DNA of 64,000 nt, taken from positions 3,164,501 through 3,228,500 of the forward strand of contig OX387200.1 in NCBI GenBank assembly GCA_947561715.1, given 5' to 3'. A model generated the notes under the pieces. That model did no database searches and had not been told where the DNA came from. It saw only the letters and a program-made list of their open reading frames with translations. The translations under genes and the position numbers were made by a program. Within the stretch, counting starts at the first letter, position 1. Every line of letters starts with the position of its first letter. Below are positions 1 to 64,000 of the stretch, piece by piece. The DNA comes from Ascidia mentula (taxonomy: Eukaryota > Chordata > Ascidiacea > Phlebobranchia > Ascidiidae).

Positions 1-76
1 GAACCATCGTTGTTCGTGCAATTGGTACTTTGAGGTCCACAGGCAACAGCTGTTCCATTCAGGCATTCGTCGATGT
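1..76 (-). CDS. Partial cbEGF exon at the left window edge
   Basis: Only the upstream 76 nt of a standard exon are present, from the acceptor junction at 76/77 to the window edge. They encode D1 through about residue 25, including the first three Cys and both N-glycosylation sequons. The gene continues beyond position 1, so this is not its 3' end. Confidence 0.9.
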
Positions 77-3000
77 CTAAAATCAAGGAAAGTTTTCAAT
101 TACGAATCCACATACGATCCATTTCAACTGAAAATGAACAAAGCTCTTACCAACGCAATTTCCATTTGTATCTTGGAATCCAACGTTACAATCACAAGTG
201 TATGAACCATCGTTGTTCGTACAATTGGTACTTTGAGGTCCACAGGCAACAGCTGTTCCATTCAGGCATTCGTCGATATCTAAAGTCATGGAATGTTTTT
301 ACAATTACGAATGCATACATAATCTTACATTTCAACTGAAAATGAACAACGCTCTTACCAGCGCATTTTCCATTTTTCACTTGGAATCCAACGTTACAAT
401 CACAAGTGTATGAACCATCGTTGTTCGTGCAATTGGTACTTTGAGGTCCACAGGCAACAGCTGTTCCATTCAGGCATTCGTCGATGTCTAAAATCAAGGA
501 AAGTTTTCAATTACGAATCCACATACGATCCATTTCAACTGAAAATGAACAAAGCTCTTACCAACGCAATTTCCATTTGTATCTTGGAATCCAACGTTAC
601 AATCACAAGTGTATGAACCATCGTTGTTCGTGCAATTGGTACTTTGAGGTCCACAGGCAACAGCTGTTCCATTCAGGCATTCGTCGATGTCTAAAATCAA
701 GGAAAGTTTTCAATTACGAATCCACATACGATCCATTTCAACTGAAAATGAACAATTCTCTTACCAACGCAATTTCCATTTGTATCTTGGAATCCAACGT
801 TACAATCACAAGTGTATGAACCATCGTTGTTCGTGCAATTGGTACTTTGAGGTCCACAGGCAACAGCTGTTCCATTCAGGCATTCGTCGATGTCTAAAAT
901 CAAGGAAAGTTTTACATTACGAATCCATATATGATCCATTTCAGCTGAAAATGAACAACGCTCTTACCAACGCAATTTCCATTTGTATCTCGGAATCCAA
1001 CGTTACAATCACAAGTGTATGAACCATCGTTGTTCGTGCAATTTGTACTTTGAGGTCCACAGGCAACAGCTGTTCCATTCAGGCATTCGTCGATGTCTAA
1101 AATCATGGAATGATTTTACAATTACGAATGCATGCATGATCTTACATTTCAACGAAAAATGAACAACGCTCTTACCAACGCAATTTCCATTTGTATCTTG
1201 GAATCCAACGATACAATCACAAGTGTATGAACCATCGTTGTTCGTGCAATTGGTACTTTGAGGTCCACAGGCAACAGCTGTTCCATTCAGGCATTCGTCG
1301 ATGTCTAAAATCATGGAATGATTTTACAATTACGAATGCATGCATGATCTTACATTTCAACTGAAAATGAACAACGCTCTTACCAACGCAATTTCCATTT
1401 GTATCTTGGAATCCAACGTTACAATCACAAGTGTATGAACCATCGTTGTTCGTGCAATTGGTACTTTGAGGTCCACAGGCAACAGCTGTTCCATTCAGGC
1501 ATTCGTCGATGTCTAAAATCATGAAATATTTTCACAATTACGAATGCATGCATGATCTTACATTTCAACTGAAAATGAACAACGCTCTTACCAACGCAAT
1601 TTCCATTTGTATCTTGGAATCCAACGTTACAATCACAAGTGTATGAACCATCGTTGTTCGTGCAATTGGTACTTTGAGGTCCACAGGCAACAGCTGTTCC
1701 ATTCAGGCATTCGTCGATGTCTAAAATCATGGAAAGTTTTACATTACGAATCCATATATGATCCATTTCAACTGAAAATGAACAACGCTCTTACCAACGC
1801 AATTTCCATTTGTATCTTGGAATCCAACGTTACAATCACAAGTGTATGAACCATCGTTGTTCGTGCAATTGGTACTTTGAGGTCCACAGGCAACAGCTGT
1901 TCCATTCAGGCATTCGTCGATGTCTAATATCATGGAATGTTTTACAATTACGCATCCATATTTGAACCATTTCAACTGAAAATGAACAACGCTCTTACCA
2001 ACGCAATTTCCATTTGTATCTTGGAATCCAACGTTACAATCACAAGTGTATGAACCATCGTTGTTCGTGCAATTGGTACTTTGAGGTCCACAGGCAACAG
2101 CTGTTCCATTCAGGCATTCGTCGATGTCTAAAATCATGGAATGTTTAACAATTACGTATCCATATATGAACCATTTCAACTGAAAATGAACAACGCTCTT
2201 ACCAACGCAATTTCCATTTGTATCTTGGAATCCAACATTACAATCACAAGTGTATGAACCATCGTTGTTCGTGCAATTGGTACTTTGAGGTCCACAGGCA
2301 ACAGCTGTTCCATTCAGGCATTCGTCGATGTCTAAAATCATGGAAAGTTTTTGCAATTACGAATGCATGCATGATCTTACATTTCAACAGAAATTGGACA
2401 ACGCCCTTACCAACGCAATTTCCATTAGTATCTTGGAATCCAACTTTACAATCACAAGTGTATGAACCATCGTTGTTCGTGCAATTGGTACTTTGAGGTC
2501 CACAGGCAACAGCTGTTCCATTCAGGCATTCGTCGATGTCTAAAATCATGGAAAGTTTTTACAATTACGAATGCATACATGATCTTACATTTCAACTGAA
2601 AATGAACAACGCTCTTACCAACGCAATTTCCATTTGTATCTTGGAATCCAACGTTACAATCACAAGTGTATGAACCATCGTTGTTCGTGCAATTGGTACT
2701 TTGAGGTCCACAGGAAACAGCTGTTCCATCCAGGCATTCGTCGATGTCTAAAATCATGGAAAGTTTCACAATTACGAATCCATATATGATCTTACATTTC
2801 AACAGAAAATGAACAACGCTCTTACCAACGCAATTTCCATTTGTATCTTGGAATCCAACGTTACAATCACAAGTGTATGAACCATCGTTGTTCGTGCAAT
2901 TGGTACTTTGAGGTCCACAGGCAACAGCTGTTCCATTCAGGCATTCGTCGATGTCTAAAATCATGGAATGTTTTTACAATTACGAATTCATACATGATCC

Positions 3001-6000
3001 ATTTCAACTGAAAATGAACAAAGCTCTTACCAACGCAATTTCCATTTGTATCTTGGAATCCAACGTTACAATCACAAGTGTATGAACCATCGTTGTTCGT
3101 GCAATTGGTACTTTGAGGTCCACAGGCAACAGCTGTTCCATTCAGGCATTCGTCGATGTCTAAAATCAAGGAAAGTTTTCAATTACGAATCCACATACGA
3201 TCCATTTCAACTGAAAATGAACAATTCTCTTACCAACGCAATTTCCATTTGTATCTTGGAATCCAACGTTACAATCACAAGTGTATGAACCATCGTTGTT
3301 CGTGCAATTGGTACTTTGAGGTCCACAGGCAACAGCTGTTCCATTCAGGCATTCGTCGATGTCTAAAATCAAGGAAAGTTTTACATTACGAATCCATATA
3401 TGATCCATTTCAGCTGAAAATGAACAACGCTCTTACCAACGCAATTTCCATTTGTATCTTGGAATCCAACGTTACAATCACAAGTGTATGAACCATCGTT
3501 GTTCGTGCAATTGGTACTTTGAGGTCCACAGGCAACAGCTGTTCCATTCAGGCATTCGTCGATGTCTAAAATCAAGGAAAGTTTTCAATTACGAATCCAC
3601 ATACGATCCATTTCAACTGAAAATGAACAATTCTCTTACCAACGCAATTTCCATTTGTATCTTGGAATCCAACGTTACAATCACAAGTGTATGAACCATC
3701 GTTGTTCGTGCAATTGGTACTTTGAGGTCCACAGGCAACAGCTGTTCCATTCAGGCATTCGTCGATGTCTAAAATCAAGGAAAGTTTTACATTACGAATC
3801 CATATATGATCCATTTCAGCTGAAAATGAACAACGCTCTTACCAACGCAATTTCCATTTGTATCTCGGAATCCAACGTTACAATCACAAGTGTATGAACC
3901 ATCGTTGTTCGTGCAATTTGTACTTTGAGGTCCACAGGCAACAGCTGTTCCATTCAGGCATTCGTCGATGTCTAAAATCATGGAATGATTTTACAATTAC
4001 GAATGCATGCATGATCTTACATTTCAACGAAAAATGAACAACGCTCTTACCAACGCAATTTCCATTTGTATCTTGGAATCCAACGATACAATCACAAGTG
4101 TATGAACCATCGTTGTTCGTGCAATTGGTACTTTGAGGTCCACAGGCAACAGCTGTTCCATTCAGGCATTCGTCGATGTCTAAAATCATGGAATGATTTT
4201 ACAATTACGAATGCATGCATGATCTTACATTTCAACTGAAAATGAACAACGCTCTTACCAACGCAATTTCCATTTGTATCTTGGAATCCAACGTTACAAT
4301 CACAAGTGTATGAACCATCGTAGTTCGTGCAATTGGTACTTTGAGGTCCACAGGCAACAGCTGTTCCATTCAGGCATTCGTCGATGTCTAAAATCATGAA
4401 ATATTTTCACAATTACGAATGCATGCATGATCTTACATTTCAACTGAAAATGAACAACGCTCTTACCAACGCAATTTCCATTTGTATCTTGGAATCCAAC
4501 GTTACAATCACAAGTGTATGAACCATCGTTGTTCGTGCAATTGGTACTTTGAGGTCCACAGGCAACAGCTGTTCCATTCAGGCATTCGTCGATGTCTAAA
4601 ATCAAGGAAAGTTTTCAATTACGAATCCACATATGATCCATTTCAACTGAAAATGAACAATTCTCTTACCAACGCAATTTCCATTTGTATCTTGGAATCC
4701 AACGTTACAATCACAAGTGTATGAACCATCGTTGTTCGTGCAATTGGTACTTTGAGGTCCACAGGCAACAGCTGTTCCATTCAGGCATTCGTCGATGTCT
4801 AAAATCATGGAATGATTTTACAATTACGAATGCATGCATGATCTCACATTTCAACTGAAAATGAACAACGCTCTTACCAACGCAATTTCCATTTGTATCT
4901 TGGAATCCAACGATACAATCACAAGTGTATGAACCATCGTTGTTCGTGCAATTGGTACTTTGAGGTCCACAGGCAACAGCTGTTCCATTCAGGCATTCGT
5001 CGATGTCTAAAATCATGGAATGATTTTACAATTACGAATGCATGCATGATCTTACATTTCAACTGAAAATGAACAACGCTCTTACCAACGCAATTTCCAT
5101 TTGTATCTTGGAATCCAACGTTACAATCACAAGTGTATGAACCATCGTAGTTCGTGCAATTGGTACTTTGAGGTCCACAGGCAACAGCTGTTCCATTCAG
5201 GCATTCGTCGATGTCTAAAATCATGAAATATTTTCACAATTACGAATGCATGCATGATCTTACATTTCAACTGAAAATGAACAACGCTCTTACCAACGCA
5301 ATTTCCATTTGTATCTTGGAATCCAACGTTACAATCACAAGTGTATGAACCATCGTTGTTCGTGCAATTGGTACTTTGAGGTCCACAGGCAACAGCTGTT
5401 CCATTCAGGCATTCGTCGATGTCTAAAATCAAGGAAAGTTTTCAATTACGAATCCACATATGATCCATTTCAACTGAAAATGAACAATTCTCTTACCAAC
5501 GCAATTTCCATTTGTATCTTGGAATCCAACGTTACAATCACAAGTGTATGAACCATCGTTGTTCGTGCAATTGGTACTTTGAGGTCCACAGGCAACAGCT
5601 GTTCCATTCAGGCATTCGTCGATGTCTAAAATCAAGGAAAGTTTTACATTACGAATCCATATATGATCCATTTCAGCTGAAAATGAACAACGCTCTTACC
5701 AACGCAATTTCCATTTGTATCTTGGAATCCAACGTTACAATCACAAGTGTATGAACCATCGTTGTTCGTGCAATTGGTACTTTGAGGTCCACAGGCAACA
5801 GCTGTTCCATTCAGGCATTCGTCGATGTCTAAAATCAAGGAAAGTTTTACATTACGAATCCATATATGATCCATTTCAGCTGAAAATGAACAACGCTCTT
5901 ACCAACGCAATTTCCATTTGTATCTCGGAATCCAACGTTACAATCACAAGTGTATGAACCATCGTTGTTCGTGCAATTTGTACTTTGAGGTCCACAGGCA

Positions 6001-9000
6001 ACAGCTGTTCCATTCAGGCATTCGTCGATGTCTAAAATCATGGAATGATTTTACAATTACGAATGCATGCATGATCTTACATTTCAACGAAAAATGAACA
6101 ACGCTCTTACCAACGCAATTTCCATTTGTATCTTGGAATCCAACGATACAATCACAAGTGTATGAACCATCGTTGTTCGTGCAATTGGTACTTTGAGGTC
6201 CACAGGCAACAGCTGTTCCATTCAGGCATTCGTCGATGTCTAAAATCATGGAATGATTTTACAATTACGAATGCATGCATGATCTTACATTTCAACTGAA
6301 AATGAACAACGCTCTTACCAACGCAATTTCCATTTGTATCTTGGAATCCAACGTTACAATCACAAGTGTATGAACCATCGTAGTTCGTGCAATTGGTACT
6401 TTGAGGTCCACAGGCAACAGCTGTTCCATTCAGGCATTCGTCGATGTCTAAAATCATGAAATATTTTCACAATTACGAATGCATGCATGATCTTACATTT
6501 CAACTGAAAATGAACAACGCTCTTACCAACGCAATTTCCATTTGTATCTTGGAATCCAACGTTACAATCACAAGTGTATGAACCATCGTTGTTCGTGCAA
6601 TTGGTACTTTGGGGTCCACAGGCAACAGCTGTTCCATTCAGGCATTCGTCGATGTCTAAAATCATGGAAAGTTTTACATTACGAATCCATATATGATCCA
6701 TTTCAACTGAAAATGAACAACGCTCTTACCAACGCAATTTCCATTTGTATCTTGGAATCCAACGTTACAATCACAAGTGTATGAACCATCGTTGTTCGTG
6801 CAATTGGTACTTTGAGGTCCACAGGCAACAGCTGTTCCATTCAGGCATTCGTCGATGTCTAAAATCATGGAAAGTTTTACATTACGAATCCATATATGAT
6901 CCATTTCAACTGAAAATGAACAACGCTCTTACCAACGCAATTTCCATTTGTATCTTGGAATCCAACGTTACAATCACAAGTGTATGAACCATCGTTGTTC
7001 GTGCAATTGGTACTTTGAGGTCCACAGGCAACAGCTGTTCCATTCAGGCATTCGTCGATGTCTAAAATCATGAAATATTTTCACAATTACGAATGCATGC
7101 ATGATCTTACATTTCAACTGAAAATGAACAACGCTCTTACCAACGCAATTTCCATTTGTATCTTGGAATCCAACGTTACAATCACAAGTGTATGAACCAT
7201 CGTTGTTCGTACAATTGGTACTTTGAGGTCCACAGGCAACAGCTGTTCCATTCAGGCATTCGTCGATATCTAAAGTCATGGAATGTTTTTACAATTACGA
7301 ATGCATACATAATCTTACATTTCAACTGAAAATGAACAACGCTCTTACCAGCGCATTTTCCATTTTTCACTTGGAATCCAACGTTACAATCACAAGTGTA
7401 TGAACCATCGTTGTTCGTGCAATTGGTACTTTGAGGTCCACAGGCAACAGCTGTTCCATTCAGGCATTCGTCGATGTCTAAAATCAAGGAAAGTTTTCAA
7501 TTACGAATCCACATACGATCCATTTCAACTGAAAATGAACAAAGCTCTTACCAACGCAATTTCCATTTGTATCTTGGAATCCAACGTTACAATCACAAGT
7601 GTATGAACCATCGTTGTTCGTGCAATTGGTACTTTGAGGTCCACAGGCAACAGCTGTTCCATTCAGGCATTCGTCGATGTCTAAAATCAAGGAAAGTTTT
7701 CAATTACGAATCCACATACGATCCATTTCAACTGAAAATGAACAATTCTCTTACCAACGCAATTTCCATTTGTATCTTGGAATCCAACGTTACAATCACA
7801 AGTGTATGAACCATCGTTGTTCGTGCAATTGGTACTTTGAGGTCCACAGGCAACAGCTGTTCCATTCAGGCATTCGTCGATGTCTAAAATCAAGGAAAGT
7901 TTTACATTACGAATCCATATATGATCCATTTCAGCTGAAAATGAACAACGCTCTTACCAACGCAATTTCCATTTGTATCTCGGAATCCAACGTTACAATC
8001 ACAAGTGTATGAACCATCGTTGTTCGTGCAATTTGTACTTTGAGGTCCACAGGCAACAGCTGTTCCATTCAGGCATTCGTCGATGTCTAAAATCATGGAA
8101 TGATTTTACAATTACGAATGCATGCATGATCTTACATTTCAACGAAAAATGAACAACGCTCTTACCAACGCAATTTCCATTTGTATCTTGGAATCCAACG
8201 ATACAATCACAAGTGTATGAACCATCGTTGTTCGTGCAATTGGTACTTTGAGGTCCACAGGCAACAGCTGTTCCATTCAGGCATTCGTCGATGTCTAAAA
8301 TCATGGAATGATTTTACAATTACGAATGCATGCATGATCTTACATTTCAACTGAAAATGAACAACGCTCTTACCAACGCAATTTCCATTTGTATCTTGGA
8401 ATCCAACGTTACAATCACAAGTGTATGAACCATCGTTGTTCGTGCAATTGGTACTTTGAGGTCCACAGGCAACAGCTGTTCCATTCAGGCATTCGTCGAT
8501 GTCTAAAATCATGAAATATTTTCACAATTACGAATGCATGCATGATCTTACATTTCAACTGAAAATGAACAACGCTCTTACCAACGCAATTTCCATTTGT
8601 ATCTTGGAATCCAACGTTACAATCACAAGTGTATGAACCATCGTTGTTCGTGCAATTGGTACTTTGAGGTCCACAGGCAACAGCTGTTCCATTCAGGCAT
8701 TCGTCGATGTCTAAAATCATGGAAAGTTTTACATTACGAATCCATATATGATCCATTTCAACTGAAAATGAACAACGCTCTTACCAACGCAATTTCCATT
8801 TGTATCTTGGAATCCAACGTTACAATCACAAGTGTATGAACCATCGTTGTTCGTGCAATTGGTACTTTGAGGTCCACAGGCAACAGCTGTTCCATTCAGG
8901 CATTCGTCGATGTCTAATATCATGGAATGTTTTACAATTACGCATCCATATTTGAACCATTTCAACTGAAAATGAACAACGCTCTTACCAACGCAATTTC

Positions 9001-54000: not shown

Positions 54001-57000
54001 ATCCAACGTTACAATCACAAGTGTATGAACCATCGTTGTTCGTGCAATTGGTACTTTGAGGTCCACAGGCAACAGCTGTTCCATTCAGGCATTCGTCGAT
54101 GTCTAAAATCATGGAATGATTTTACAATTACGAATGCATGCATGATCTTACATTTCAACTGAAAATGAACAACGCTCTTACCAACGCAATTTCCATTTGT
54201 ATCTTGGAATCCAACGTTACAATCACAAGTGTATGAACCATCGTTGTTCGTGCAATTGGTACTTTGAGGTCCACAGGCAACAATTGTTCCATTTAGGCAT
54301 TCGTCGATGTCTAACATCATGGAAAGTTTTACATTACGAATCCATATATGATCCATTTCAACTGAAAATGAACAACGCTCTTACCAACGCAATTTCCATT
54401 TGTATCTTGGAATCCAACGTTACAATCACAAGTGTATGAACCATCGTTGTTCGTGCAATTGGTACTTTGAGGTCCACAGGCAACAGCTGTTCCATTCAGG
54501 CATTCGTCGATGTCTAACATCATGGAATGATTTTACAATTACGAATGCATGCATGATCTTACATTTCAACTGAAAATGAACAACGCTCTTACCAACGCAA
54601 TTTCCATTTGTATCTTGGAATCCAACGTTACAATCACAAGTGTATGAACCATCGTTGTTCGTGCAATTGGTACTTTGAGGTCCACAGGCAACAGCTGTTC
54701 CATTCAGGCATTCGTCGATGTCTAAAATCATGGAATGATTTTGCAATTACGAATGCATGCATGATCATACATTTCAACTGAAAGTGAACAACGCTCTTAC
54801 CAACGCAATTTCCATTTGTATCTTGGAATCCAACGTTACAATCACAAGTGTATGAACCATCGTTGTTCGTGCAATTGGTACTTTGAGGTCCACAGGCAAC
54901 AGCTGTTCCATTCAGGCATTCGTCGATGTCTAAAATCATGGAATGATTTTACAATTACGAATGCATGCATGATCTTACATTTCAACTGAAAATGAACAAC
55001 GCTCTTACCAACGCAATTTCCATTTGTATCTTGGAATCCAACGTTACAATCACAAGTGTATGAACCATCGTTGTTCGTGCAATTGGTACTTTGAGGTCCA
55101 CAGGCAACAGCTGTTCCATTCAGGCATTCGTCGATGTCTAACATCATGGAAAGTTTTACATTACGAATCCATATATGATCCATTTCAACTGAAAATGAAC
55201 AACGCTCTTACCAACGCAATTTCCATTTGTATCTTGGAATCCAACGTTACAATCACAAGTGTATGAACCATCGTTGTTCGTGCAATTGGTACTTTGAGGT
55301 CCACAGGCAACAGCTGTTCCATTCAGGCATTCGTCGATGTCTAAAATCATAGAATGATTTTGCAATTACGAATGCATGCATGATCTTACATTTCAACTGA
55401 AAATGAACAACGCTCTTACCAACGCAATTTCCATTTGTATCTTGGAATCCAACGTTACAATCACAAGTGTATGAACCATCGTTGTTCGTGCAATTGGTAC
55501 TTTGAGGTCCACAGGCAACAGCTGTTCCATTCAGGCATTCGTCGATGTCTAAGATCATGGAATGATTTTACAATTACGAATGCATGCATAATCTTACATT
55601 TCAACTGAAAATGAACAACGCTCTTACCAACGCAATTTCCATTTGTATCTTGGAATCCAACGTTACAATCACAAGTGTATGAACCATCGTTGTTCGTGCA
55701 ATTGGTACTTTGAGGTCCACAGGCAACAATTGTTCCATTTAGGCATTCGTCGATGTCTAATATCATAGAAAGTTTTACATTACGAATCCATATATGATCC
55801 ATTTCAACTGAAAATGAACAACGCTCTTACCAACGCAATTTCCATTTGTATCTTGGAATCCAACGTTACAATCACAAGTGTATGAACCATCGTTGTTCGT
55901 GCAATTGGTACTTTGAGGTCCACAGGCAACAGCTGTTCCATTCAGGCATTCGTCGATGTCTAACATCATGGAAAGTTTTACATTACGAATCCATATATGA
56001 TCCATTTCAACTGAAAATGAACAACGCTCTTACCAACGCAATTTCCATTTGTATCTTGGAATCCAACGTTACAATCACAAGTGTATGAACCATCGTTGTT
56101 CGTGCAATTGGTACTTTGAGGTCCACAGGCAACAGCTGTTCCATTCAGGCATTCGTCGATGTCTAAAATCATGGAATGATTTTGCAATTACGAATGCATG
56201 CATGATCTTACATTTCAACTGAAAATGAACAACGCTCTTACCAACGCAATTTCCATTTGTATCTTGGAATCCAACGTTACAATCACAAGTGTATGAACCA
56301 TCGTTGTTCGTGCAATTGGTACTTTGAGGTCCACAGGCAACAGCTGTTCCATTCAGGCATTCGTCGATGTCTAAAATCATGGAATGATTTTACAATTACG
56401 AATGCATGCATGATCTTACATTTCAACTGAAAATGAACAACGCTCTTACCAACGCAATTTCCATTTGTATCTTGGAATCCAACGTTACAATCACAAGTGT
56501 ATGAACCATCGTTGTTCGTGCAATTGGTACTTTGAGGTCCACAGGCAACAGCTGTTCCATTCAGGCATTCGTCGATGTCTAAAATCATGAAAAGTTTTAC
56601 ATTACGAATCCATATATGATCCATTTCAACTGAAAATGAACAACGCTCTTACCAACGCAATTTCCATTTGTATCTTGGAATCCAACGTTACAATCACAAG
56701 TGTATGAACCATCGTTGTTCGTGCAATTGGTACTTTGAGGTCCACAGGCAACAGCTGTTCCATTCAGGCATTCGTCGATGTCTAAAATCATAGAATGATT
56801 TTGCAATTACGAATGCATGCATGATCTTACATTTCAACTGAAAATGAACAACGCTCTTACCAACGCAATTTCCATTTGTATCTTGGAATCCAACGTTACA
56901 ATCACAAGTGTATGAACCATCGTTGTTCGTGCAATTGGTACTTTGAGGTCCACAGGCAACAGCTGTTCCATTCAGGCATTCGTCGATGTCTAAAATCATG

Positions 57001-60000
57001 GAATGATTTTACAATTACGAATGCATGCATGATCTTACATTTCAACTGAAAATGAACAACGCTCTTACCAACGCAATTTCCATTTGTATCTTGGAATCCA
57101 ACGTTACAATCACAAGTGTATGAACCATCGTTGTTCGTGCAATTGGTACTTTGAGGTCCACAGGCAACAGCTGTTCCATTCAGGCATTCGTCGATGTCTA
57201 AAATCATGAAAAGTTTTACATTACGAATCCATATATGATCCATTTCAACTGAAAATGAACAACGCTCTTACCAACGCAATTTCCATTTGTATCTTGGAAT
57301 CCAACGTTACAATCACAAGTGTATGAACCATCGTTGTTCGTGCAATTGGTACTTTGAGGTCCACAGGCAACAGCTGTTCCATTCAGGCATTCGTCGATGT
57401 CTAAAATCATAGAATGATTTTGCAATTACGAATGCATGCATGATCTTACATTTCAACTGAAAATGAACAACGCTCTTACCAACGCAATTTCCATTTGTAT
57501 CTTGGAATCCAACGTTACAATCACAAGTGTATGAACCATCGTTGTTCGTGCAATTGGTACTTTGAGGTCCACAGGCAACAGCTGTTCCATTCAGGCATTC
57601 GTCGATGTCTAAAATCATAGAATGATTTTGCAATTACGAATGCATGCATGATCTTACATTTCAACTGAAAATGAACAACGCTCTTACCAACGCAATTTCC
57701 ATTTGTATCTTGGAATCCAACGTTACAATCACAAGTGTATGAACCATCGTTGTTCGTGCAATTGGTACTTTGAGGTCCACAGGCAACAGCTGTTCCATTC
57801 AGGCATTCGTCGATGTCTAAAATCATGGAATGATTTTACAATTACGAATGCATGCATGATCTTACATTTCAACTGAAAATGAACAACGCTCTTACCAACG
57901 CAATTTCCATTTGTATCTTGGAATCCAACGTTACAATCACAAGTGTATGAACCATCGTTGTTCGTGCAATTGGTACTTTGAGGTCCACAGGCAACAGCTA
58001 TTCCATTCAGGCATTCGTCGATGTCTAAAATCATGGAATATTTTTGCAATTACGAATGCATACATGATCTTTCATTTCAACCGAAAATGAACAACGCTCT
58101 TACCAACGCAATTTCCATTTATATCTTGGAATCCAACGTTACAATCACAAGTGTATGAACCATCGTTGTTCGTGCAATTGGTACTTTGAGGTCCACAGGC
58201 AACAGCTGTTCCATTCAGGCATTCGTCGATGTCTAAAATCATGGAATGATTTCACAATTACGAATGCATGCATGATCTTACATTTCAACTGAAAATGAAC
58301 AACGCTCTTACCAACGCAATTTCCATTTGTATCTTGGAATCCAACGTTACAATCACAAGTGTATGAACCATCGTTGTTCGTGCAATTGGTACTTTGAGGT
58401 CCACAGGCAACAGCTGTTCCATTCAGGCATTCGTCGATGTCTAACATCATGGAAAGTTTTACATTACGAATCCATATATGATCCATTTCAACTGAAAATG
58501 AACAACGCTCTTACCAACGCAATTTCCATTTGTATCTTGGAATCCAACGTTACAATCACAAGTGTATGAACCATCGTTGTTCGTGCAATTGGTACTTTGA
58601 GGTCCACAGGCAACAGCTGTTCCATTCAGGCATTCGTCGATGTCTAAAATCATAGAATGATTTTGCAATTACGAATGCATGCATGATCTTACATTTCAAC
58701 TGAAAATGAACAACGCTCTTACCAACGCAATTTCCATTTGTATCTTGGAATCCAACGTTACAATCACAAGTGTATGAACCATCGTTGTTCGTGCAATTGG
58801 TACTTTGAGGTCCACAGGCAACAGCTGTTCCATTCAGGCATTCGTCGATGTCTAAAATCATGGAATATTTTTACAATTACGAATGCATGCATGATCTTTC
58901 ATTTCAACTGAAAATGAACAACGCTCTTACCAACGCAATTTCCATTTGTATCTTGGAATCCAACGTTACAATCACAAGTGTATGAACCATCGTTGTTCGT
59001 GCAATTGGTACTTTGAGGTCCACAGGCAACAGCTGTTCCATTCAGGCATTCGTCGATGTCTAAAATCATGGAATATTTTTACAATTACGAATGCATGCAT
59101 GATCTTTCATTTCAACCGAAAATGAACAACGCTCTTACCAACGCAATTTCCATTTGTATCTTGGAATCCAACGTTACAATCACAAGTGTATGAACCATCG
59201 TTGTTCGTGCAATTGGTACTTTGAGGTCCACAGGCAACAGCCGTTCCATTCAGGCATTCGTCGATGTCTAAAATCATGGAATGATTTTACAATTACGAAT
59301 GCATGCATGATCTTACATTTCAACTGAAAATGAACAACGCTCTTACCAACGCAATTTCCATTTGTATCTTGGAATCCAACGTTACAATCACAAGTGTATG
59401 AACCATCGTTGTTCGTGCAATTGGTACTTTGAGGTCCACAGGCAACAGCTGTTCCATTCAGGCATTCGTCGATGTCTAAAATCATGGAATGATTTTACAA
59501 TTACGAATACATGCATGATCTCACATTTCAACTGAAAATGAACAACGCTCTTACCAACGCAATTTCCATTTGTATCTTGGAATCCAACGTTACAATCACA
59601 AGTGTATGAACCATCGTTGTTCGTGCAATTGGTACTTTGAGGTCCACAGGCAACAGCTGTTCCATTCAGGCATTCGTCGATGTCTAACATCATGGAAAGT
59701 TTTACATTACGAATCCATATATGATCCATTTCAACTGAAAATGAACAACGCTCTTACCAACGCAATTTCCATTTGTATCTTGGAATCCAACGTTACAATC
59801 ACAAGTGTATGAACCATCGTTGTTCGTGCAATTGGTACTTTGAGGTCCACAGGCAACAGCTGTTCCATTCAGGCATTCGTCGATGTCTAAAATCATGGAA
59901 TGATTTTGCAATTACGAATGCATGCATGATCTTACATTTCAACTGAAAGTGAACAACGCTCTTACCAACGCAATTTCCATTTGTATCTTGGAATCCAACG

Positions 60001-63000
60001 TTACAATCACAAGTGTATGAACCATCGTTGTTCGTGCAATTGGTACTTTGAGGTCCACAGGCAACAGCTGTTCCATTCAGGCATTCGTCGATGTCTAAAA
60101 TCATGGAATGATTTTACAATTACGAATGCATGCATGATCTTACATTTCAACTGAAAATGAACAACGCTCTTACCAACGCAATTTCCATTTGTATCTTGGA
60201 ATCCAACGTTACAATCACAAGTGTATGAACCATCGTTGTTGGTGCAATTGGTACTTTGAGGTCCACAGGCAACAGCTGTTCCATTCAGGCATTCGTCGAT
60301 GTCTAACATCATGGAAAGTTTTACATTACGAATCCATATATGATCCATTTCAACTGAAAATGAACAACGCTCTTACCAACGCAATTTCCATTTGTATCTT
60401 GGAATCCAACGTTACAATCACAAGTGTATGAACCATCGTTGTTGGTGCAATTGGTACTTTGAGGTCCACAGGCAACAGCTGTTCCATTCAGGCATTCGTC
60501 GATGTCTAACATCATGGAAAGTTTTACATTACGAATCCATATATGATCGATTTCAACTGAAAATGAACAACGCTCTTACCAACGCAATTTCCATTTGTAT
60601 CTTGGAATCCAACGTTACAATCACAAGTGTATGAACCATCGTTGTTCGTGCAATTGGTACTTTGAGGTCCACAGGCAACAGCTGTTCCATTCAGGCATTC
60701 GTCGATGTCTAACATCATGGAAAGTTTTACATTACGAATCCATATATGATCCATTTCAACTGAAAATGAACAACGCTCTTACCAACGCAATTTCCATTTG
60801 TATCTTGGAATCCAACGTTACAATCACAAGTGTATGAACCATCGTTGTTCGTGCAATTGGTACTTTGAGGTCCACAGGCAACAGCTGTTCCATTCAGGCA
60901 TTCGTCGATGTCTAACATCATGGAAAGTTTTACATTACGAATCCATATATGATCCATTTCAACTGAAAATGAACAACGCTCTTACCAACGCAATTTCCAT
61001 TTGTATCTTGGAATCCAACGTTACAATCACAAGTGTATGAACCATCGTTGTTCGTGCAATTGGTACTTTGAGGTCCACAGGCAACAGCTGTTCCATTCAG
61101 GCATTCGTCGATGTCTAAAATCATGGAATGATTTTACAATTACGAATGCATGCATGATCTTACATTTCAACTGAAAATGAACAACGCTCTTACCAACGCA
61201 ATTTCCATTTGGATCTTGGAATCCAACGTTACAATCACAAGTGTATGAACCATCGTTGTTCGTGCAATTGGTACTTTGAGGTCCACAGGCAACAGCTGTT
61301 CCATTCAGGCATTCGTCGATGTCTAACATCATGGAAAGTTTTACATTACGAATCCATATATGATCCATTTCAACTGAAAATGAACAACGCTCTTACCAAC
61401 GCAATTTCCATTTGTATCTTGGAATCCAACGTTACAATCACAAGTGTATGAACCATCGTTGTTCGTGCAATTGGTACTTTGAGGTCCACAGGCAACAGCT
61501 GTTCCATTCAGGCATTCGTCGATGTCTAACATCATGGAAAGTTTTACATTACGAATCCATATATAATCCATTTCAACTGAAAATGAACAACGCTCTTACC
61601 AACGCAATTTCCATTTGTATCTTGGAATCCAACGTTACAATCACAAGTGTATGAACCATCGTTGTTCGTGCAATTGGTACTTTGAGGTCCACAGGCAACA
61701 GCTGTTCCATTCAGGCATTCGTCGATGTCTAAAATCATGGAATGATTTTACAATTACGAATGCATGCATGATCTTACATTTCAACTGAAAATGAACAACG
61801 CTCTTACCAACGCAATTTCCATTTCTATCTTGGAATCCAACGTTACAATCACAAGTGTATGAACCATCGTTGTTCGTGCAATTGGTACTTTGAGGTCCAC
61901 AGGCAACAGCTGTTCCATTCAGGCATTCGTCGATGTCTAACATCATGGGAAGTTTTACATTACGAATCCATATATGATCCATTTCAACTGAAAATGAACA
62001 ACGCTCTTACCAACGCAATTTCCATTTGTATCTTGGAATCCAACGTTACAATCACAAGTGTATGAACCATCGTTGTTCGTGCAATTGGTACTTTGAGGTC
62101 CACAGACAACAGCTGTTCCATTCAGGCATTCGTCGATGTCTAAAATCATGGAATGATTTTACAATTACGAATGCATGCATGATCTTACATTTCAACTGAA
62201 AATGAACAACGCTCTTACCAACGCAATTTCCATTTCTATCTTGGAATCCAACGTTACAATCACAAGTGTATGAACCATCGTTGTTCGTGCAATTGGTACT
62301 TTGAGGTCCACAGGCAACAGCTGTTCCATTCAGGCATTCGTCGATGTCTAAAATCATGGAATGATTTTGCAATTACGAATGCATGCATGATCTTACATTT
62401 CAACTGAAAGTGAACAACGCTCTTACCAACGCAATTTCCATTTGTATCTTGGAATCCAACGTTACAATCACAAGTGTATGAACCATCGTTGTTCGTGCAA
62501 TTGGTACTTTGAGGTCCACAGGCAACAGCTGTTCCATTCAGGCATTCGTCGATGTCTAAAATCATGGAATGATTTTACAATTACGAATGCATGCATGATC
62601 TTACATTTCAACTGAAAATGAACAACGCTCTTACCAACGCAATTTCCATTTGTATCTTGGAATCCAACGTTACAATCACAAGTGTATGAACCATCGTTGT
62701 TGGTGCAATTGGTACTTTGAGGTCCACAGGCAACAGCTGTTCCATTCAGGCATTCGTCGATGTCTAACATCATGGAAAGTTTTACATTACGAATCCATAT
62801 ATGATCCATTTCAACTGAAAATGAACAACGCTCTTACCAACGCAATTTCCATTTGTATCTTGGAATCCAACGTTACAATCACAAGTGTATGAACCATCGT
62901 TGTTGGTGCAATTGGTACTTTGAGGTCCACAGGCAACAGCTGTTCCATTCAGGCATTCGTCGATGTCTAACATCATGGAAAGTTTTACATTACGAATCCA

Positions 63001-63986
63001 TATATGATCGATTTCAACTGAAAATGAACAACGCTCTTACCAACGCAATTTCCATTTGTATCTTGGAATCCAACGTTACAATCACAAGTGTATGAACCAT
63101 CGTTGTTCGTGCAATTGGTACTTTGAGGTCCACAGGCAACAGCTGTTCCATTCAGGCATTCGTCGATGTCTAACATCATGGAAAGTTTTACATTACGAAT
63201 CCATATATGATCCATTTCAACTGAAAATGAACAACGCTCTTACCAACGCAATTTCCATTTGTATCTTGGAATCCAACGTTACAATCACAAGTGTATGAAC
63301 CATCGTTGTTCGTGCAATTGGTACTTTGAGGTCCACAGGCAACAGCTGTTCCATTCAGGCATTCGTCGATGTCTAACATCATGGAAAGTTTTACATTACG
63401 AATCCATATATGATCCATTTCAACTGAAAATGAACAACGCTCTTACCAACGCAATTTCCATTTGTATCTTGGAATCCAACGTTACAATCACAAGTGTATG
63501 AACCATCGTTGTTCGTGCAATTGGTACTTTGAGGTCCACAGGCAACAGCTGTTCCATTCAGGCATTCGTCGATGTCTAAAATCATGGAATGATTTTACAA
63601 TTACGAATGCATGCATGATCTTACATTTCAACTGAAAATGAACAACGCTCTTACCAACGCAATTTCCATTTGGATCTTGGAATCCAACGTTACAATCACA
63701 AGTGTATGAACCATCGTTGTTCGTGCAATTGGTACTTTGAGGTCCACAGGCAACAGCTGTTCCATTCAGGCATTCGTCGATGTCTAACATCATGGAAAGT
63801 TTTACATTACGAATCCATATATGATCCATTTCAACTGAAAATGAACAACGCTCTTACCAACGCAATTTCCATTTGTATCTTGGAATCCAACGTTACAATC
63901 ACAAGTGTATGAACCATCGTTGTTCGTGCAATTGGTACTTTGAGGTCCACAGGCAACAGCTGTTCCATTCAGGCATTCGTCGATGT
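1..63986 (-). CDS. Giant tandem cbEGF-repeat protein, 311 exons, partial at both ends
   Basis: Seen: 310 complete 129-bp exons plus one partial exon, all in the same orientation, each flanked by a 3' splice site ending TTTAG, ATTAG or GTTAG and a 5' splice site reading GTTG|GTAAGAG. Each exon starts with two bases (AC) and ends with one (G), so all splice junctions are phase 1 and every exon adds 43 residues. Numbering from the split-codon Asp: D1-I-D-E-C5, then Cys at 13, 20, 29, 31 and 42. C20-x-N22-x4-Y27-x-C29-x-C31 matches the Asn beta-hydroxylation and calcium consensus of cbEGF domains. C42-V43-D1 leaves a one-residue linker, as in fibrillin-type tandem cbEGF rods. Sequons are N7-G-T and N19-C-T. 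Known of the family: extracellular, calcium-rigidified adhesion or matrix proteins. Inferred: secreted or membrane-anchored matrix megaprotein. Signal peptide and termini are not in the window, so the exact family (fibrillin-like, Notch-like or other) is open. Confidence 0.93.
77..150 (-). other. 74-nt intron class (type example)
   Basis: Donor GTAAGAG, acceptor TTTAG. Length 3n+2, so retention shifts frame, and a stop is met soon after about 20 intron-coded residues. This class, 75 of 310 introns, lacks the UGCAUG hexamer and the internal GTAAGA of the 79-nt class and has ATATATG or ATATGTG-like sequence in their place. It occurs in regions A and C only; region B uses 75-nt introns instead. 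Confidence 0.88.
151..279 (-). CDS. First complete cbEGF exon (type example)
   Basis: Reference exon for the coordinates used here. The donor GTAAGAG lies just below 151 and the acceptor TTTAG just above 279. It differs silently from the consensus in the split Asp codon (GAT instead of GAC) and in Cys20 (TGT). The same variant begins copies 2 and 3 of the region A higher-order repeat at 7141..7269 and 14745..14873, so it marks the repeat boundary. The 14745..14873 copy also has T18 to Ala. Confidence 0.92.
359..487 (-). CDS. cbEGF exon with divergent C-terminal loop (V-K-N-G-K-C-A)
   Basis: Residues 36-43 read Q-V-K-N-G-K-C-A instead of Q-D-T-N-G-N-C-V, so the last loop gains two lysines and the linker residue is Ala. 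Six cysteines and calcium ligands are intact. This is the most divergent exon I saw and recurs only once per region A repeat, at 7349..7477 and 14953..15081. It may be an older unit that escaped homogenisation. Confidence 0.9.
968..1096 (-). CDS. cbEGF exon with Q36R
   Basis: CAA to CGA changes the residue after G-F in the loop between Cys31 and Cys42. The same variant occurs at the equivalent exon ends 3971, 6031, 8086, 10961, 13635, 15690 and 18565, always followed in transcript-upstream order by the N32I exon, so the pair was amplified together. Confidence 0.88.
1176..1304 (-). CDS. cbEGF exon with N32I
   Basis: AAC to ATC gives C-I-V-G-F after Cys31. The adjacent G34-F35, which in cbEGF pairs packs against the neighbouring domain, is unchanged. 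Recurs with the Q36R exon throughout region A, for example at 4051..4179 and 6111..6239; exons 4878..5006 and 12482..12610 have N32I without the Q36R neighbour. Confidence 0.88.
1305..1383 (-). other. 79-nt intron class with two donors and UGCAUG (type example)
   Basis: In RNA sense the normal donor GTAAGAG is at intron bases 1-7. A TTTTCAG tract lies at 17-23, a second donor-like GTAAGA at 31-36, TGCATG at 40-45, and the acceptor GATTTTAG ends at 79. This length class has 175 of 310 introns; most, but not all, keep both the second GTAAGA and TGCATG. Variants with CATACAT or CTTTCAT on the plus strand lose one of them. The branch point is not obvious; no strong CTAAC-type site is visible. Confidence 0.85.
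1339..1344 (-). promoter_or_regulatory. Intronic UGCAUG, possible RBFOX splicing-factor site
   Basis: The minus-strand RNA reads UGCAUG here, four bases downstream of the internal GTAAGA at 1348..1353. UGCAUG is the established target hexamer of the RBFOX (Fox-1) family, and sites downstream of a donor usually favour its use. The hexamer recurs in most 79-nt introns and is absent from the 74 and 75 nt introns. Binding is inference only; the hexamer also belongs to a palindromic ATGCATGCAT stretch and could be chance fixed by amplification. Confidence 0.4.
2128..2202 (-). other. 75-nt stop-free intron class (type example)
   Basis: Normal GTAAGAG donor and TTTAG acceptor. The length is a multiple of three and no stop occurs in the reading frame of the flanking exons, so retention would insert 25 residues between two domains and keep the frame. 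There are 42 introns of this length and 12 of 78 nt with the same property. Neighbouring exons 1923, 2127 and 2331 are linked in this way into one continuous frame. Confidence 0.85.
2411..2539 (-). CDS. cbEGF exon with N32K and a variant donor intron
   Basis: C-K-V-G-F replaces C-N-V-G-F. The donor is GTAAGGG instead of GTAAGAG, and its intron reads AATTTCTGTT in RNA sense. It is the marker that shows segments 19799..20625 and 21242..21653 derive from this part of region A (exons 20210 and 21653 carry the same change). Confidence 0.88.
2619..2747 (-). CDS. cbEGF exon lacking the first N-glycan sequon (N7D, A12S)
   Basis: L-D-G-T replaces L-N-G-T, removing the N7 sequon, and Ser precedes Cys13. 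The second sequon at N19 remains. Recurs at 9609..9737, 17213..17341 and 20290..20418. Confidence 0.88.
4259..4387 (-). CDS. cbEGF exon with N23Y next to the hydroxylation Asn
   Basis: AAC to TAC gives T-N-Y-D-G-S-Y. The ligand and hydroxylation residue N22 is retained, so calcium binding should survive, but the loop gains a second aromatic. Recurs in region A (5214, 6447, 11377, 11991, 12818, 14051, 18981). Confidence 0.88.
7141..14744 (-). repeat. Region A higher-order repeat, copy 2 (37 cbEGF units, 7604 bp)
   Basis: Exon upper ends equal those of copy 1 plus 6990 from 7269 to 11788. Three extra exons follow at 11991, 12199 and 12402. From 12610 to 14665 they equal copy 1 plus 7604. Apart from the 614-bp insertion the copies are almost identical; one seen difference is in the intron after copy 1 exon 4798, where ATCTCACATT (near 4843) reads ATCTTACATT in copy 2. 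Confidence 0.92.
11789..12402 (-). repeat. Three-unit (614 bp) tandem duplication specific to copy 2
   Basis: Exons 11377, 11585 and 11788 recur at 11991, 12199 and 12402 with a constant 614-bp offset, including the N23Y marker of the first of the trio. Copy 1 has the trio once at the corresponding place (4387, 4595, 4798), followed by a separate four-unit duplication shared by both copies. This is a simple signature of unequal exchange between misaligned units. Confidence 0.85.
14745..19669 (-). repeat. Region A higher-order repeat, copy 3 (24 cbEGF units, truncated)
   Basis: Exon upper ends are copy 1 plus 14594 from 14873 to 19392, then 19595. Relative to copy 1, the four-unit (827 bp) internal duplication is single here, so 19189, 19392 and 19595 also align with 5422, 5625 and 5828. 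The copy then stops in the chimeric exon at 19670..19798. Confidence 0.88.
19670..19798 (-). CDS. cbEGF exon at the recombination junction between regions A and B
   Basis: The intron below this exon (19596..19669) matches copy 1 intron 5829..5902. The intron above it (19799..19873) matches copy 1 intron 2128..2202, and homology continues to 20625 versus 2954 (offset 17671). Units far apart in copy 1 are therefore joined through this exon. The exon itself is intact and encodes a standard domain, so the junction keeps frame and splice sites. It lacks the Q36R change found at the corresponding copy 1 exon 5903..6031. Confidence 0.8.
21113..21241 (-). CDS. cbEGF exon with A12D
   Basis: GCC to GAC gives V-D-C before Cys13, adding a negative charge in the first loop. 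Also at exons 24756, 30337 and 37167, always bounded by a 75-nt intron, so it travels with that unit type. Confidence 0.88.
21525..21653 (-). CDS. cbEGF exon with T21R, second sequon lost
   Basis: N-C-R-N-N replaces N-C-T-N-N, which removes the N19 glycosylation sequon while leaving N22. It also carries N32K. T21R recurs at exons 27858, 33439, 40686, 43577 and 43785. Confidence 0.87.
21733..21861 (-). CDS. cbEGF exon with T21G, second sequon lost
   Basis: N-C-G-N-N: two adjacent base changes relative to the consensus ACG (to GGG), probably via the AGG (Arg) variant in the neighbouring unit. Recurs at 28066 and 33647; in the fourth copy the matching exon 43785 has Arg instead. Confidence 0.87.
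22560..22688 (-). CDS. cbEGF exon with V43I linker
   Basis: GTT to ATT in the last full codon changes the single residue linking Cys42 to the next domain's first ligand. Both residues are beta-branched aliphatics, so the rigid linker geometry should be kept. The donor junction reads ATTG|GTAAGAG. Confidence 0.87.
22972..23100 (-). CDS. cbEGF exon with N7K, A10V, A12D
   Basis: The first loop reads L-K-G-T-V-V-D-C. Three replacements sit within six residues, the N7 sequon is lost, and cysteines and ligands are untouched. No second copy was seen in the window, unlike most variants. Confidence 0.88.
24832..24960 (-). CDS. cbEGF exon starting D-F-D-E with T28I
   Basis: The residue between the first two acidic ligands is Phe instead of Ile. 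Its backbone carbonyl, not its side chain, is expected to bind calcium. T28I lies between Y27 and Cys29. Recurs at 30413..30541; exons 27031, 32612, 39859 and 42750 share D-F-D-E but have A12S instead. Confidence 0.88.
25039..25167 (-). CDS. cbEGF exon with N7D
   Basis: L-D-G-T removes the first sequon, with silent changes at A12 and Cys42. The acceptor context above it (TTTGCATGATTTTAG) differs from neighbours by TTGCATG in place of TTCCATG. Copy at 30620..30748. Confidence 0.86.
28557..28685 (-). CDS. cbEGF exon with D24V
   Basis: T-N-N-V-G-S-Y: the acidic residue two after the hydroxylation Asn becomes Val. The consensus C-x-N-x4-Y-x-C-x-C is still met. Copies at exons 34267 and 41302; the fourth copy of the repeat lacks this unit. 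Confidence 0.88.
28761..28889 (-). CDS. cbEGF exon with T18I
   Basis: Q-S-I-N-C replaces Q-S-T-N-C just before the second sequon, which is retained. Copies at exons 34471, 41506 and 44401 make it a reliable marker for the four region B repeat copies. Confidence 0.88.
28969..29097 (-). CDS. cbEGF exon with N32Y
   Basis: C-Y-V-G-F after Cys31. Copies at 34679, 41714 and 44609. The 41586..41714 copy has in addition A12G, not seen elsewhere. Confidence 0.87.
29173..34754 (-). repeat. Region B higher-order repeat, copy 2 (27 cbEGF units, 5582 bp)
   Basis: Exon upper ends: 29301, 29509, 29717, 29925, 30133, 30337, 30541, 30748, 30952, 31160, 31368, 31576, 31784, 31988, 32196, 32404, 32612, 32819, 33023, 33231, 33439, 33647, 33855, 34063, 34267, 34471, 34679. 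The only length difference from copy 1 is one extra base in the intron 33648..33726 (79 nt against 78 nt at 28067..28144), which changes a frame-preserving intron into a frame-shifting one if retained. A few intron substitutions also differ, for example near 26252 versus 31833. Confidence 0.9.
34755..37658 (-). repeat. Region B middle segment with a homogeneous 208-bp run (14 units)
   Basis: Exon upper ends: 34883, 35091, 35299, 35507, 35715, 35923, 36131, 36339, 36547, 36755, 36963, 37167, 37371, 37579. Between 35716 and 36755 five successive 208-bp units are almost identical and share an intron variant (plus-strand CATAGAATGATTTTGC). One of them has a GTGAGAG donor (exon 36211..36339) instead of GTAAGAG. 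The same variant family recurs from 45230 on, where it is scattered among other units. Confidence 0.88.
35379..35507 (-). CDS. cbEGF exon with T28A and T38R
   Basis: S-Y-A-C-D-C and Q-D-R-N-G-N-C. Copies at 41998..42126 and 44893..45021. T38R alone reappears at 61936 and 62347 in region C, either by independent change or by exchange between distant units. Confidence 0.87.
37659..41997 (-). repeat. Region B higher-order repeat, rearranged third copy (21 units)
   Basis: Exon upper ends: 37787, 37995, 38199, 38407, 38615, 38823, 39031, 39235, 39443, 39651, 39859, 40066, 40270, 40478, 40686, 40890, 41098, 41302, 41506, 41714, 41918. The first five units repeat at once (offset 1036 bp: 37787 to 38615 and 38823 to 39651). 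The rest follows the order of copy 2 from 32612 on, but with one unit missing between 40478 and 40890. Confidence 0.87.
41998..45229 (-). repeat. Region B higher-order repeat, rearranged fourth copy (16 units)
   Basis: Exon upper ends: 42126, 42334, 42542, 42750, 42957, 43161, 43369, 43577, 43785, 43989, 44197, 44401, 44609, 44813, 45021, 45229. Units 42334 to 43369 match 39443 to 40478 (offset 2891). The D24V exon present at 28685, 34267 and 41302 is missing here. Units 45021 and 45229 match 35507 and 35715 (offset 9514), so this copy rejoins the middle segment. Confidence 0.87.
45230..49228 (-). repeat. Region C, left segment (19 cbEGF units)
   Basis: Exon upper ends: 45437, 45645, 45853, 46061, 46269, 46477, 46680, 46888, 47096, 47302, 47505, 47713, 47921, 48124, 48332, 48540, 48743, 48946, 49154. 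An acceptor ending ATGTTAG first appears above exon 45437 and stays common to the right edge. The 75 and 78 nt introns of region B are gone; intron lengths are 74, 77 (one, 47097..47173) and 79. Confidence 0.88.
49229..53148 (-). repeat. Region C higher-order repeat, copy 1 (19 units, 3920 bp)
   Basis: Exon upper ends: 49357, 49563, 49766, 49974, 50182, 50385, 50593, 50801, 51009, 51212, 51420, 51628, 51831, 52034, 52242, 52450, 52653, 52861, 53069. Markers shared with copy 2 are the 77-nt intron before exon 49563, the A10I exons 50182 and 51628, and an intron variant with AAAGTGAAC. The offset to copy 2 is 3920 at the left end and 4128 after one unit is added there. Confidence 0.88.
50054..50182 (-). 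CDS. cbEGF exon with A10I
   Basis: N-G-T-I-V-A-C: GCT to ATT needs two changes. Leu6 uses TTA here. The N7 sequon is kept. Copies at 51628, 54310 and 55756 mark the two copies of the 19-unit repeat. Confidence 0.87.
53149..56860 (-). repeat. Region C higher-order repeat, copy 2 (18 units in this span)
   Basis: Exon upper ends: 53277, 53483, 53686, 53894, 54102, 54310, 54513, 54721, 54929, 55137, 55340, 55548, 55756, 55959, 56162, 56370, 56578, 56781. One extra 208-bp unit (exon 53894) relative to copy 1 raises the offset from 3920 to 4128. The acceptor above exon 55548 ends in CTTAG, where the equivalent copy 1 site ends in TTTAG. Confidence 0.88.
57896..58024 (-). CDS. cbEGF exon with T9I, first sequon lost
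   Basis: N-G-I destroys the N7 sequon by one base change (ACA to ATA). It lies at the edge of the divergent patch 58025..59138 and was seen only once. Confidence 0.87.
58104..58232 (-). CDS. cbEGF exon with T38I
   Basis: Q-D-I-N-G-N-C in the last loop. The intron downstream in the transcript (58025..58103) belongs to the CTTTCAT subfamily, in which a TGA follows soon after the donor, so read-through frames from this exon are short. The exon itself is intact. Confidence 0.87.
61194..61322 (-). CDS. cbEGF exon with T38P
   Basis: Q-D-P-N-G-N-C: ACA to CCA. Repeated 2461 bp to the right at 63655..63783. Proline in the turn of the last loop is tolerated in many EGF domains, so the fold is probably kept. 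Confidence 0.87.
62011..62139 (-). CDS. cbEGF exon with A12V
   Basis: V-V-C before Cys13. Seen once. It lies near the left end of copy 2 of the 12-unit repeat, in the last unit of copy 1. Confidence 0.86.
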
Positions 63987-64000
63987 CTAACATCATGGAA
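62219..64000 (-). repeat. Region C 12-unit repeat, copy 2, cut by the window edge (9 units)
   Basis: Exon upper ends: 62347, 62555, 62763, 62966, 63169, 63372, 63575, 63783, 63986. All but the first exon match copy 1 at offset 2461. Exon 62347 carries T38R where exon 59886 does not, so the breakpoint lies at or just above it. The array continues past position 64000, so the 5' end of the gene is further right. Confidence 0.88.
63858..63986 (-). CDS. Rightmost complete cbEGF exon
   Basis: Standard domain with all ligands and both sequons. The acceptor TGTTAG lies just above 63986 and the last 14 bases of the window belong to the preceding intron in the transcript. No signal peptide, start codon context or promoter is near, so the gene continues to the right. 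Confidence 0.9.

Follow-up and report, generated by a model that had tools for sequence, protein, structure and literature searches.

The stretch of DNA analysed here, the window, comprises 64,000 nucleotides of the ascidian Ascidia mentula, C67:3164501-3228500, where C67 denotes contig OX387200.1 of assembly GCA_947561715.1 (195.8 Mb, 79 contigs); a window position equals the genome position minus 3164500. Tandem Repeats Finder (TRF) describes the whole window, 1-64000, as one tandem array with period 208, 310.4 copies and 95% matches. Parsing of the minus strand resolved this array into 310 whole 129-bp exons and a further one represented by 76 nt, adding up to 40,066 exonic bp, and each exon carries a calcium-binding epidermal growth factor-like (cbEGF) domain. 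As judged from the gene model described below, it is very likely that one adhesion G protein-coupled receptor (GPCR) gene has this array in its coding sequence.

The cbEGF exon array

When 100-kb flanks were parsed together with the window, both ends of the array were found, one at C67:3239789, 11.3 kb past the right window edge, and the other at C67:3164240, 261 bp past the left window edge. The full array consists of 367 exons over 75.6 kb on the minus strand, and an endless array was rejected because both ends lie no more than 11.3 kb from the window. An earlier note, made from the window sequence alone, had described 310 complete and near-identical exons of 129 bp and phase 1-1 plus 76 nt, all in one orientation and without a stop. 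Our parsing confirmed this description, and the near-identity extends to the full array, in which the 367 exons comprise 46 distinct DNA sequences, 232 of them share one identical DNA sequence and 266 encode one identical peptide. The same note had stated that neither end of the array is reached, which holds within the window but not with the flanks included.

All 367 array exons are 129 bp long and of phase 1-1, contain six cysteines and no stop, and share the position of the donor; the introns that separate them, 366 in number, are all GT-AG and measure 74-79 bp. Pfam recognised EGF_CA in three joined array units with an expectation value (E) of 3.1e-27. The patterns C-x-[ND]-x4-[FY]-x-C and D-x-[DN]-E-C are each present in 367/367 units, and in sequence the array units carry the full signature of a functional cbEGF, that is, both motifs and the six cysteines. 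An N-glycosylation sequon occurs in 359 of the 367 units. The strict POGLUT2/3 motif of PMC8405936 was found in none of them and its relaxed form in 366; the hydroxylation motif applied to the array units is also given in the part of PMC8405936 consulted.

A cbEGF pattern scan of 264 kb (window and flanks), a region with no N, detected 369 domains on the minus strand only, confined to the interval 3163552-3239790. These are the 367 near-identical domains and two divergent ones at the C-terminal side. In the whole 195.8-Mb genome, a 31-bp motif from the intron of the unit gave 361 matches with at most three mismatches, all on one strand, whereas the other strand and a reversed control gave 0 matches each, and for this reason we do not attribute the array to chance. 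As all 361 matches fall inside this array, a dispersed repeat or a satellite located elsewhere was rejected.

The gene model and its domain order

The gene model comprises 388 exons over 86,356 bp, with a coding sequence of 50,259 nt that encodes 16,752 aa (1.73 MDa). All 387 introns are GT-AG and no internal stop occurs in the 50,259 nt. The modelled order is a signal peptide, one EGF, 367 cbEGF and then 19 C-terminal exons, which encode two cbEGF, a SEA-like part, EGFs, a GPR128-like part, a GPS and a secretin-type seven-transmembrane (7TM) part followed by the stop. These 19 exons lie downstream of the array, at lower coordinates, and join at GT-AG borders with consistent phase up to the stop codon at 3154053.

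In the unique C-terminal product of 924 aa, Pfam identified EGF_CA (2.8e-13), EGF (2.2e-4), GPS (1.8e-12) and 7tm_2 (1.6e-26, profile positions 3-250 of 250), with GPR128_N at 4e-4, below the Pfam cut-off. Neither TB (PF00683) nor, up to E=1, ZP was matched in this part. Pfam gave no GAIN match there either; the GAIN region is covered by phmmer alignments with the chains of ADGRG6 (21du_R, residues 336-875) and ADGRG2 (7xke_R, residues 477-875). The GPS sequence CQCNHLTNFALIV, read directly, contains an HL/T cleavage site and the tethered agonist TNFALIV, and the predicted cleavage at HL/T divides the product into 16,424 outer residues and a membrane part of 328 residues. Since the product ends with a GPS motif and a 7TM part, it is predicted to be an adhesion GPCR. 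A B-box-like string in the 3' introns had raised the suspicion of a tRNA, and ARAGORN found none in the three loci scanned.

A fibrillin or another secreted matrix protein was rejected because the GPS and 7TM parts follow the array in frame. Accordingly, the comparison with fibrillin implied by the earlier note did not stand, as the unique C-terminal part has no TB match and the product ends with GPS and 7TM. Its other expectation, an animal gene with an extraordinary cbEGF array whose protein would be among the largest and most repetitive, agrees with the predicted 16,752 aa. At the opposite end of the model, exons 1 and 2 were joined and gave EGF_Teneurin (1.9e-4) and EGF (0.0033) as best Pfam matches, all below the cut-offs; on balance we favour the start exon as modelled. 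Taken as a whole, the window is probably the interior of a 388-exon gene predicted to encode an adhesion GPCR of 16,752 aa whose stalk may act as a very long, pull-switched tether.

Coordinates of the array, of the remaining exons of the predicted receptor gene and of two further cbEGF loci in the genome
Feature	Coordinates	Strand	Basis or remark
Array interior, array exons 56-366 of 367, continuing past both edges	window 1..64000	-	exon parsing, TRF, Pfam
310 complete cbEGF exons (array exons 56-365) with GT-AG introns of 74-79 bp	window 151..63986	-	
First 76 nt of array exon 366, cut at the window edge	window 1..76	-	whole exon = window-relative 76 to -52
Example unit, array exon 56, first complete exon in reading direction	window 63858..63986	-	
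22-unit block, middle of three copies	window 7270..11788	-	
Exon 1, signal-peptide-like (start codon, hydrophobic leader), donor GTTAGT	C67:3240408-3240357	-	by eye
Exon 2, one EGF	C67:3239951-3239862	-	by eye
19 C-terminal exons overall	C67:3164166-3154053	-	
Two cbEGF exons after the array	C67:3164166-3164050, 3163676-3163548	-	
SEA-like exons	C67:3163128-3162957, 3162839-3162730	-	Pfam SEA E=0.017 alone, below cut-off
EGF, EGF-like and GPR128_N-like exons	C67:3162276-3160660	-	
GAIN-region exons	C67:3160386-3158433	-	phmmer to ADGRG6, ADGRG2
GPS exon with CQCNHLTNFALIV	C67:3158247-3158107	-	
Six 7TM and tail exons	C67:3157636-3154053	-	
Second cbEGF array and GPS-7TM frames	C67:20196736-20212242	+	array 20.197-20.208 Mb
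One-exon cbEGF array, open frame ~4,113 aa, at C69:2.557-2.568 Mb	C69:2557218-2573000	+	

Variation among the copies and growth of the array

Diversity among the copies was compared between exons and introns. The array exons have a pi of 0.0094, against 0.083 for all introns aligned together and 0.045-0.049 within each intron length class. Inside the introns, diversity at bases 7-31 is below that of the middle for the 79-bp class (0.026 vs 0.068) and the 75-bp class (0.007 vs 0.084), and hardly so for the 74-bp class (0.038 vs 0.044). We also observed that each exon variant is present in at most 5% of the copies, and that several columns of the joint intron alignment lie near 50%, partly as a result of the length classes.

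Low exon diversity is by itself no proof of selection on the protein, since silent sites and these intron bases are quiet too, and the kind of variant provides the better test. The single-base variants seen among the copies were then set against all possible ones. Silent variants amount to 16 of 81 possible and missense variants outside key residues to 35 of 210. At 11 key residues (six cysteines plus five residues involved in the calcium site or in packing) no missense variant occurs (0/79), and no stop variant occurs either (0/17). Key and stop variants together (0/96) differ from silent ones with a Fisher p=1.5e-6; 11.6 were expected, and zero was obtained in 0 of 20,000 shuffles within transition and transversion classes. 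For cysteines and stops alone the count is 0/59, with 7.0 expected, zero in 0.035% of the shuffles and a Fisher p=8.6e-5 against silent variants. By these counts, the complete lack of key and stop changes indicates selection for working cbEGF domains.

Among the 366 exon-intron units, 120 are distinct, and they are arranged in an irregular mosaic. Exact identity between units peaks at lags 27, 37, 71, 34, 14 and 30, and these peaks are modest (9-13% of unit pairs). A block of 22 units (4.5 kb) is present three times at lags 34, 37 and 71, starting, in reading direction, at 3183892, 3176288 and 3169298. The longest exact repeat measures 4,706 bp, between copies at genome positions 3184029 and 3176425, so that reads longer than this could order the units. 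Reading of the string of intron lengths distinguishes three zones of the array with different intron classes. Together with the repeated blocks, this pattern makes it likely that the array expanded as whole blocks of exon-intron units were exchanged unequally. Since each array exon is of phase 1 at both ends, the gain, loss or skipping of units keeps the reading frame.

Related receptors, mode of action and alternatives

The Clavelina lepadiformis protein LOC143445512 (2,875 aa) aligns with the predicted receptor from the EGF/GPR128_N-like part through the GAIN region, GPS and 7TM with 42% identity (306 of 735 aligned columns), and its two cbEGF-SEA segments align with 30% and 28% identity. 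Pfam found SEA in two stretches of this protein (best 1313-1367, E 3.7e-7). A search with the GPR128_N-like-to-7TM part among proteins of 1,596-5,078 aa returned 16 matches, led by two forms of LOC143445512 (E 3.9e-143 for the 2,875-aa form) and followed by a brittle-star protein (E 2.1e-71) and weaker matches. The cbEGF, SEA, GPR128_N, GPS and 7TM parts of LOC143445512 follow the same order as their counterparts in the receptor, where the second and third are SEA-like and GPR128_N-like, but the outer part of the Clavelina protein consists of other large repeats and two cbEGF-SEA pairs, without a cbEGF array. As the homologue shows the same C-terminal order without the array, the latter is likely a lineage-specific expansion within an existing receptor type.

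The 924-aa C-terminal protein was searched against proteins of up to 1,617 aa. In the best 120 of 777 matches, E-type adhesion GPCRs are on top (sloth ADGRE1-like, lancelet ADGRE2-like, turtles), and fibrillins and LTBPs are mixed among them, matching the EGF units of the C-terminal part. For solved structures, ADGRL3, ADGRG6 and ADGRG2 lead the matches of the C-terminal part, with ADGRE5 next, and ADGRE5 is the best match of the array unit. The receptor resembles the EGF-TM7 group (ADGRE: EMR1-4, CD97/ADGRE5) in having tandem EGF/cbEGF domains followed by a putative GAIN region, a GPS and a secretin-type 7TM part. Symmetric EGF exons are a known feature, and in the classical EGF-TM7 layout each such exon encodes one EGF. 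Unlike that group, the receptor has SEA-like, two EGF and GPR128_N-like parts between the array and the GAIN region, and its 367 + 2 cbEGF domains contrast with the three to five EGF repeats by which CD97 isoforms differ according to the portion of PMC9101421 available. In the part of PMC2396169 used here, Ciona has 30 listed adhesion GPCRs, of which 24 are unclassified; two of the latter have EGF repeats, and Table 1 gives no CD97/EMR member for Ciona. The receptor is filed as an adhesion GPCR and, provisionally, not as a member of ADGRE.

As a giant adhesion GPCR with a long stalk, the predicted protein is comparable to ADGRV1 (VLGR1), whose stalk is made of Calx-beta repeats. Extracts of PMC9496679 and PMC13197933 describe ADGRV1 as the largest of 33 adhesion GPCRs, and the former gives it up to 700 kDa, against a predicted 1.73 MDa for the receptor, about 2.5 times as much. 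With fibrillins and LTBPs the receptor shares long runs of cbEGF of the kind that calcium stiffens (PMC7545174, in part); it differs from them in lacking a TB match in the unique C-terminal part, in being a predicted membrane receptor and not a secreted protein, and in the near-identity of its copies. The Halocynthia egg-coat proteins VC70/VC120 are likewise ascidian EGF-repeat proteins, but their repeats number 12-13 and their precursor includes a ZP domain, as stated in a section of PMC9265791, whereas the receptor has GPS-7TM and no ZP match. Among the papers listed in searches of the open PMC literature, a collection without subscription journals and preprints, none reports so large an array in an adhesion GPCR, which leaves absence unproven. 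The parts are already known, namely cbEGF, GAIN-GPS-7TM and CD97 isoforms of varying EGF number.

Searches of the genome, in which part of the candidates were scored (150 of 979; 118 of 504 for the 7TM part; 149 of 1,352 for cbEGF arrays), revealed a second locus of similar composition on the same contig. According to the open-frame column of the search, one frame of its array is open for ~3,878 aa, and the 9 kb that were read contain 1,560 aa of cbEGF with 38 EGF_CA stretches. Behind the array there are a GPS (CNHLTNFALLV) and 7TM segments, with 7TM matches at 20210579 and 20210941. From the order and strand of these frames we infer one gene, likely another giant cbEGF adhesion GPCR with its array in one open exon; as this array lies in a single exon, the question of splicing does not arise for it. 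If the locus is one gene, this genome would hold two giant cbEGF adhesion GPCRs, one whose array is split by introns and another whose array is a single exon.

Excerpts of PMC8878244 report that the EGF-bearing receptors EMR2 and CD97 respond to vibration or shear in a manner dependent on GPS cleavage, with the outer fragment being shed. Because these receptors act force-dependently, a tether logic can be proposed by analogy for the Ascidia receptor, and we put forward only tentatively that it works as a tension tether. The introns would be spliced and most array exons would enter the mRNA; the GPS would self-cleave at HL/T, yielding an outer fragment of 16,424 residues and a receptor of 328 residues; calcium would stiffen the stalk into a rod estimated at ~1.1 micrometres (369 cbEGF x ~3 nm); the far end of the stalk would bind matrix or another cell; and tension would pull out the tethered agonist TNFALIV. 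The excerpt of PMC7545174 describes tandem cbEGF domains as extended and rod-like with calcium, a pair measuring near 60 angstrom.

The prevailing view holds that adhesion GPCRs convert pulling into signals, a response that stalk length could influence. With 367 near-identical domains in its stalk, such a receptor would turn stalk length into a measurable natural variable, since copy number is expected to vary between animals in a tandem array. The gene would also show, in extreme form, how coding sequence evolves by tandem repetition, with 387 splices in one predicted transcript and with exons that remain uniform despite diverging intron middles. A broader and still more speculative view, which we hold with less confidence than the tether itself, is that this is the largest GPCR yet modelled, with a micrometre-long, single-molecule, calcium-stiffened tether whose reach is set by exon copy number, that the array expands and contracts in the manner of a satellite under selection that maintains each copy as a working cbEGF, and that the receptor belongs to a set of giant cbEGF receptors which arose independently in ascidians, some with introns and some without.

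Several points weigh against a selected, tether-forming array in a receptor gene. Exon 1, chosen by eye, is the least secure part of the model, and the array is absent from the Clavelina homologue and hence not conserved. Silent exon sites are also quiet (pi 0.015 per silent site); because they are quiet in comparison with the introns, the sameness of the exons is in part due to homogenisation or silent-site constraint and not to selection on the protein. Missense variants taken all together are only 0.56-fold as frequent as silent ones (Fisher p=0.10, not significant), and positions neighbouring the consensus do vary, with D24->V in three copies and G25->S in one. The tests treat possible variants as independent, and the key residues, which follow the cbEGF consensus, were set after the variant list had been seen. 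The test on cysteines and stops leaves no choice of residues; it is weaker but holds.

Instead of encoding a 1.7-MDa protein, the array could serve as a reservoir of symmetric exons from which skipping leaves a small, variable subset. Every array exon is 129 bp long and of phase 1-1, so any subset would remain in frame, but all 367 copies retain the frame, the cysteines and the other five key residues, and the array of the second locus lies in one open exon (~3,878 aa open, of which 1,560 aa were read), where unit-wise skipping at exon borders would be impossible; we regard the reservoir as rather unlikely. Less probable again is a stalk that acts mainly after release, in which GPS or SEA-like cleavage would free a giant cbEGF filament for matrix or coat and the 7TM part would be a separate signal or anchor. 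The halves of cleaved adhesion GPCRs usually remain together, which counts against such a filament, as does the fact that the unique C-terminal part gave no match to the matrix domains ZP and TB. It would be compatible with the standard HL/T GPS and the SEA-like domain, and with the prominence of EGF-repeat proteins in the ascidian egg coat, where the consulted part of PMC9265791 lists HrVC70 with 12, HaVC80 with 13 and CiVC57 with 24 repeats.

Two further explanations concern the array itself. Near-identical tandem units, the 22-unit block in three copies and the exact repeat of 4,706 bp are what might mislead an assembler into multiplying or collapsing copies, leaving the true array much shorter or longer. 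Such an error is nevertheless improbable in view of the 120 distinct units in an irregular mosaic of 366, the three intron-class zones and the absence of N in 264 kb; the usual long reads, moreover, exceed the longest exact repeat. That the array is a satellite which happens to hold an open exon and is not expressed as protein seems highly improbable. The tandem units and their strong homogenisation, with silent sites only slightly more variable than the exon as a whole, would suit a satellite, but the intron motif is confined to one place in the genome (361/361) in a single orientation, exon pi is 0.0094 against 0.045-0.049 within intron classes, none of 96 possible disabling or key changes is seen, and both neighbours join the array in frame with GPS-7TM behind.

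Other loci and neighbouring genes

The one-exon array on contig C69 is probably not part of a GPCR, as far as its frames can be read; by eye, fibronectin-III-like segments, further cbEGF and just one hydrophobic segment come after the array. Further long cbEGF frames were noted at C69:2.45-2.50 Mb (minus strand) and C69:6.457-6.460 Mb (plus strand). Tandem matches of the 7TM part form clusters at C67:15.97-16.02, C69:3.18-3.32, C2:11.18-11.24, C71:7.2-7.9, C73:3.84-3.95 and C69:15.47-15.57 Mb. Among the candidates scored, these clusters suggest a large expansion of adhesion/secretin GPCRs in this genome.

The receptor gene adjoins NDUFV1, which has 86% identity to the Clavelina lepadiformis protein and 85% to that of Styela clava, with no named match closer than these in the best 120 of 7,997; several other records among the matches listed reach 85-88%. 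The other neighbour gene, recognised by eye, we take to be CNOT10-like. Exons upstream of the receptor (C67:~3246267-3244190, minus strand), which by eye we assume to be CUB-like, were considered as its N-terminus and set aside because they have an apparent start of their own at 3246267. By reading, this gene possibly has a last exon of its own with a stop near 3243139; its last readable donor is also of phase 1 and could join exon 2 of the receptor, and the exclusion stays uncertain. The CUB-like gene, C67:3243139-3246267 on the minus strand, shows its own leader, a furin-like RVKRS site and the possible stop exon, and three pieces of it gave no Pfam match up to E=1. Between the CUB-like and CNOT10-like genes a large inverted repeat was seen by eye at C67:3247300-3248300, which is probably a mobile element.

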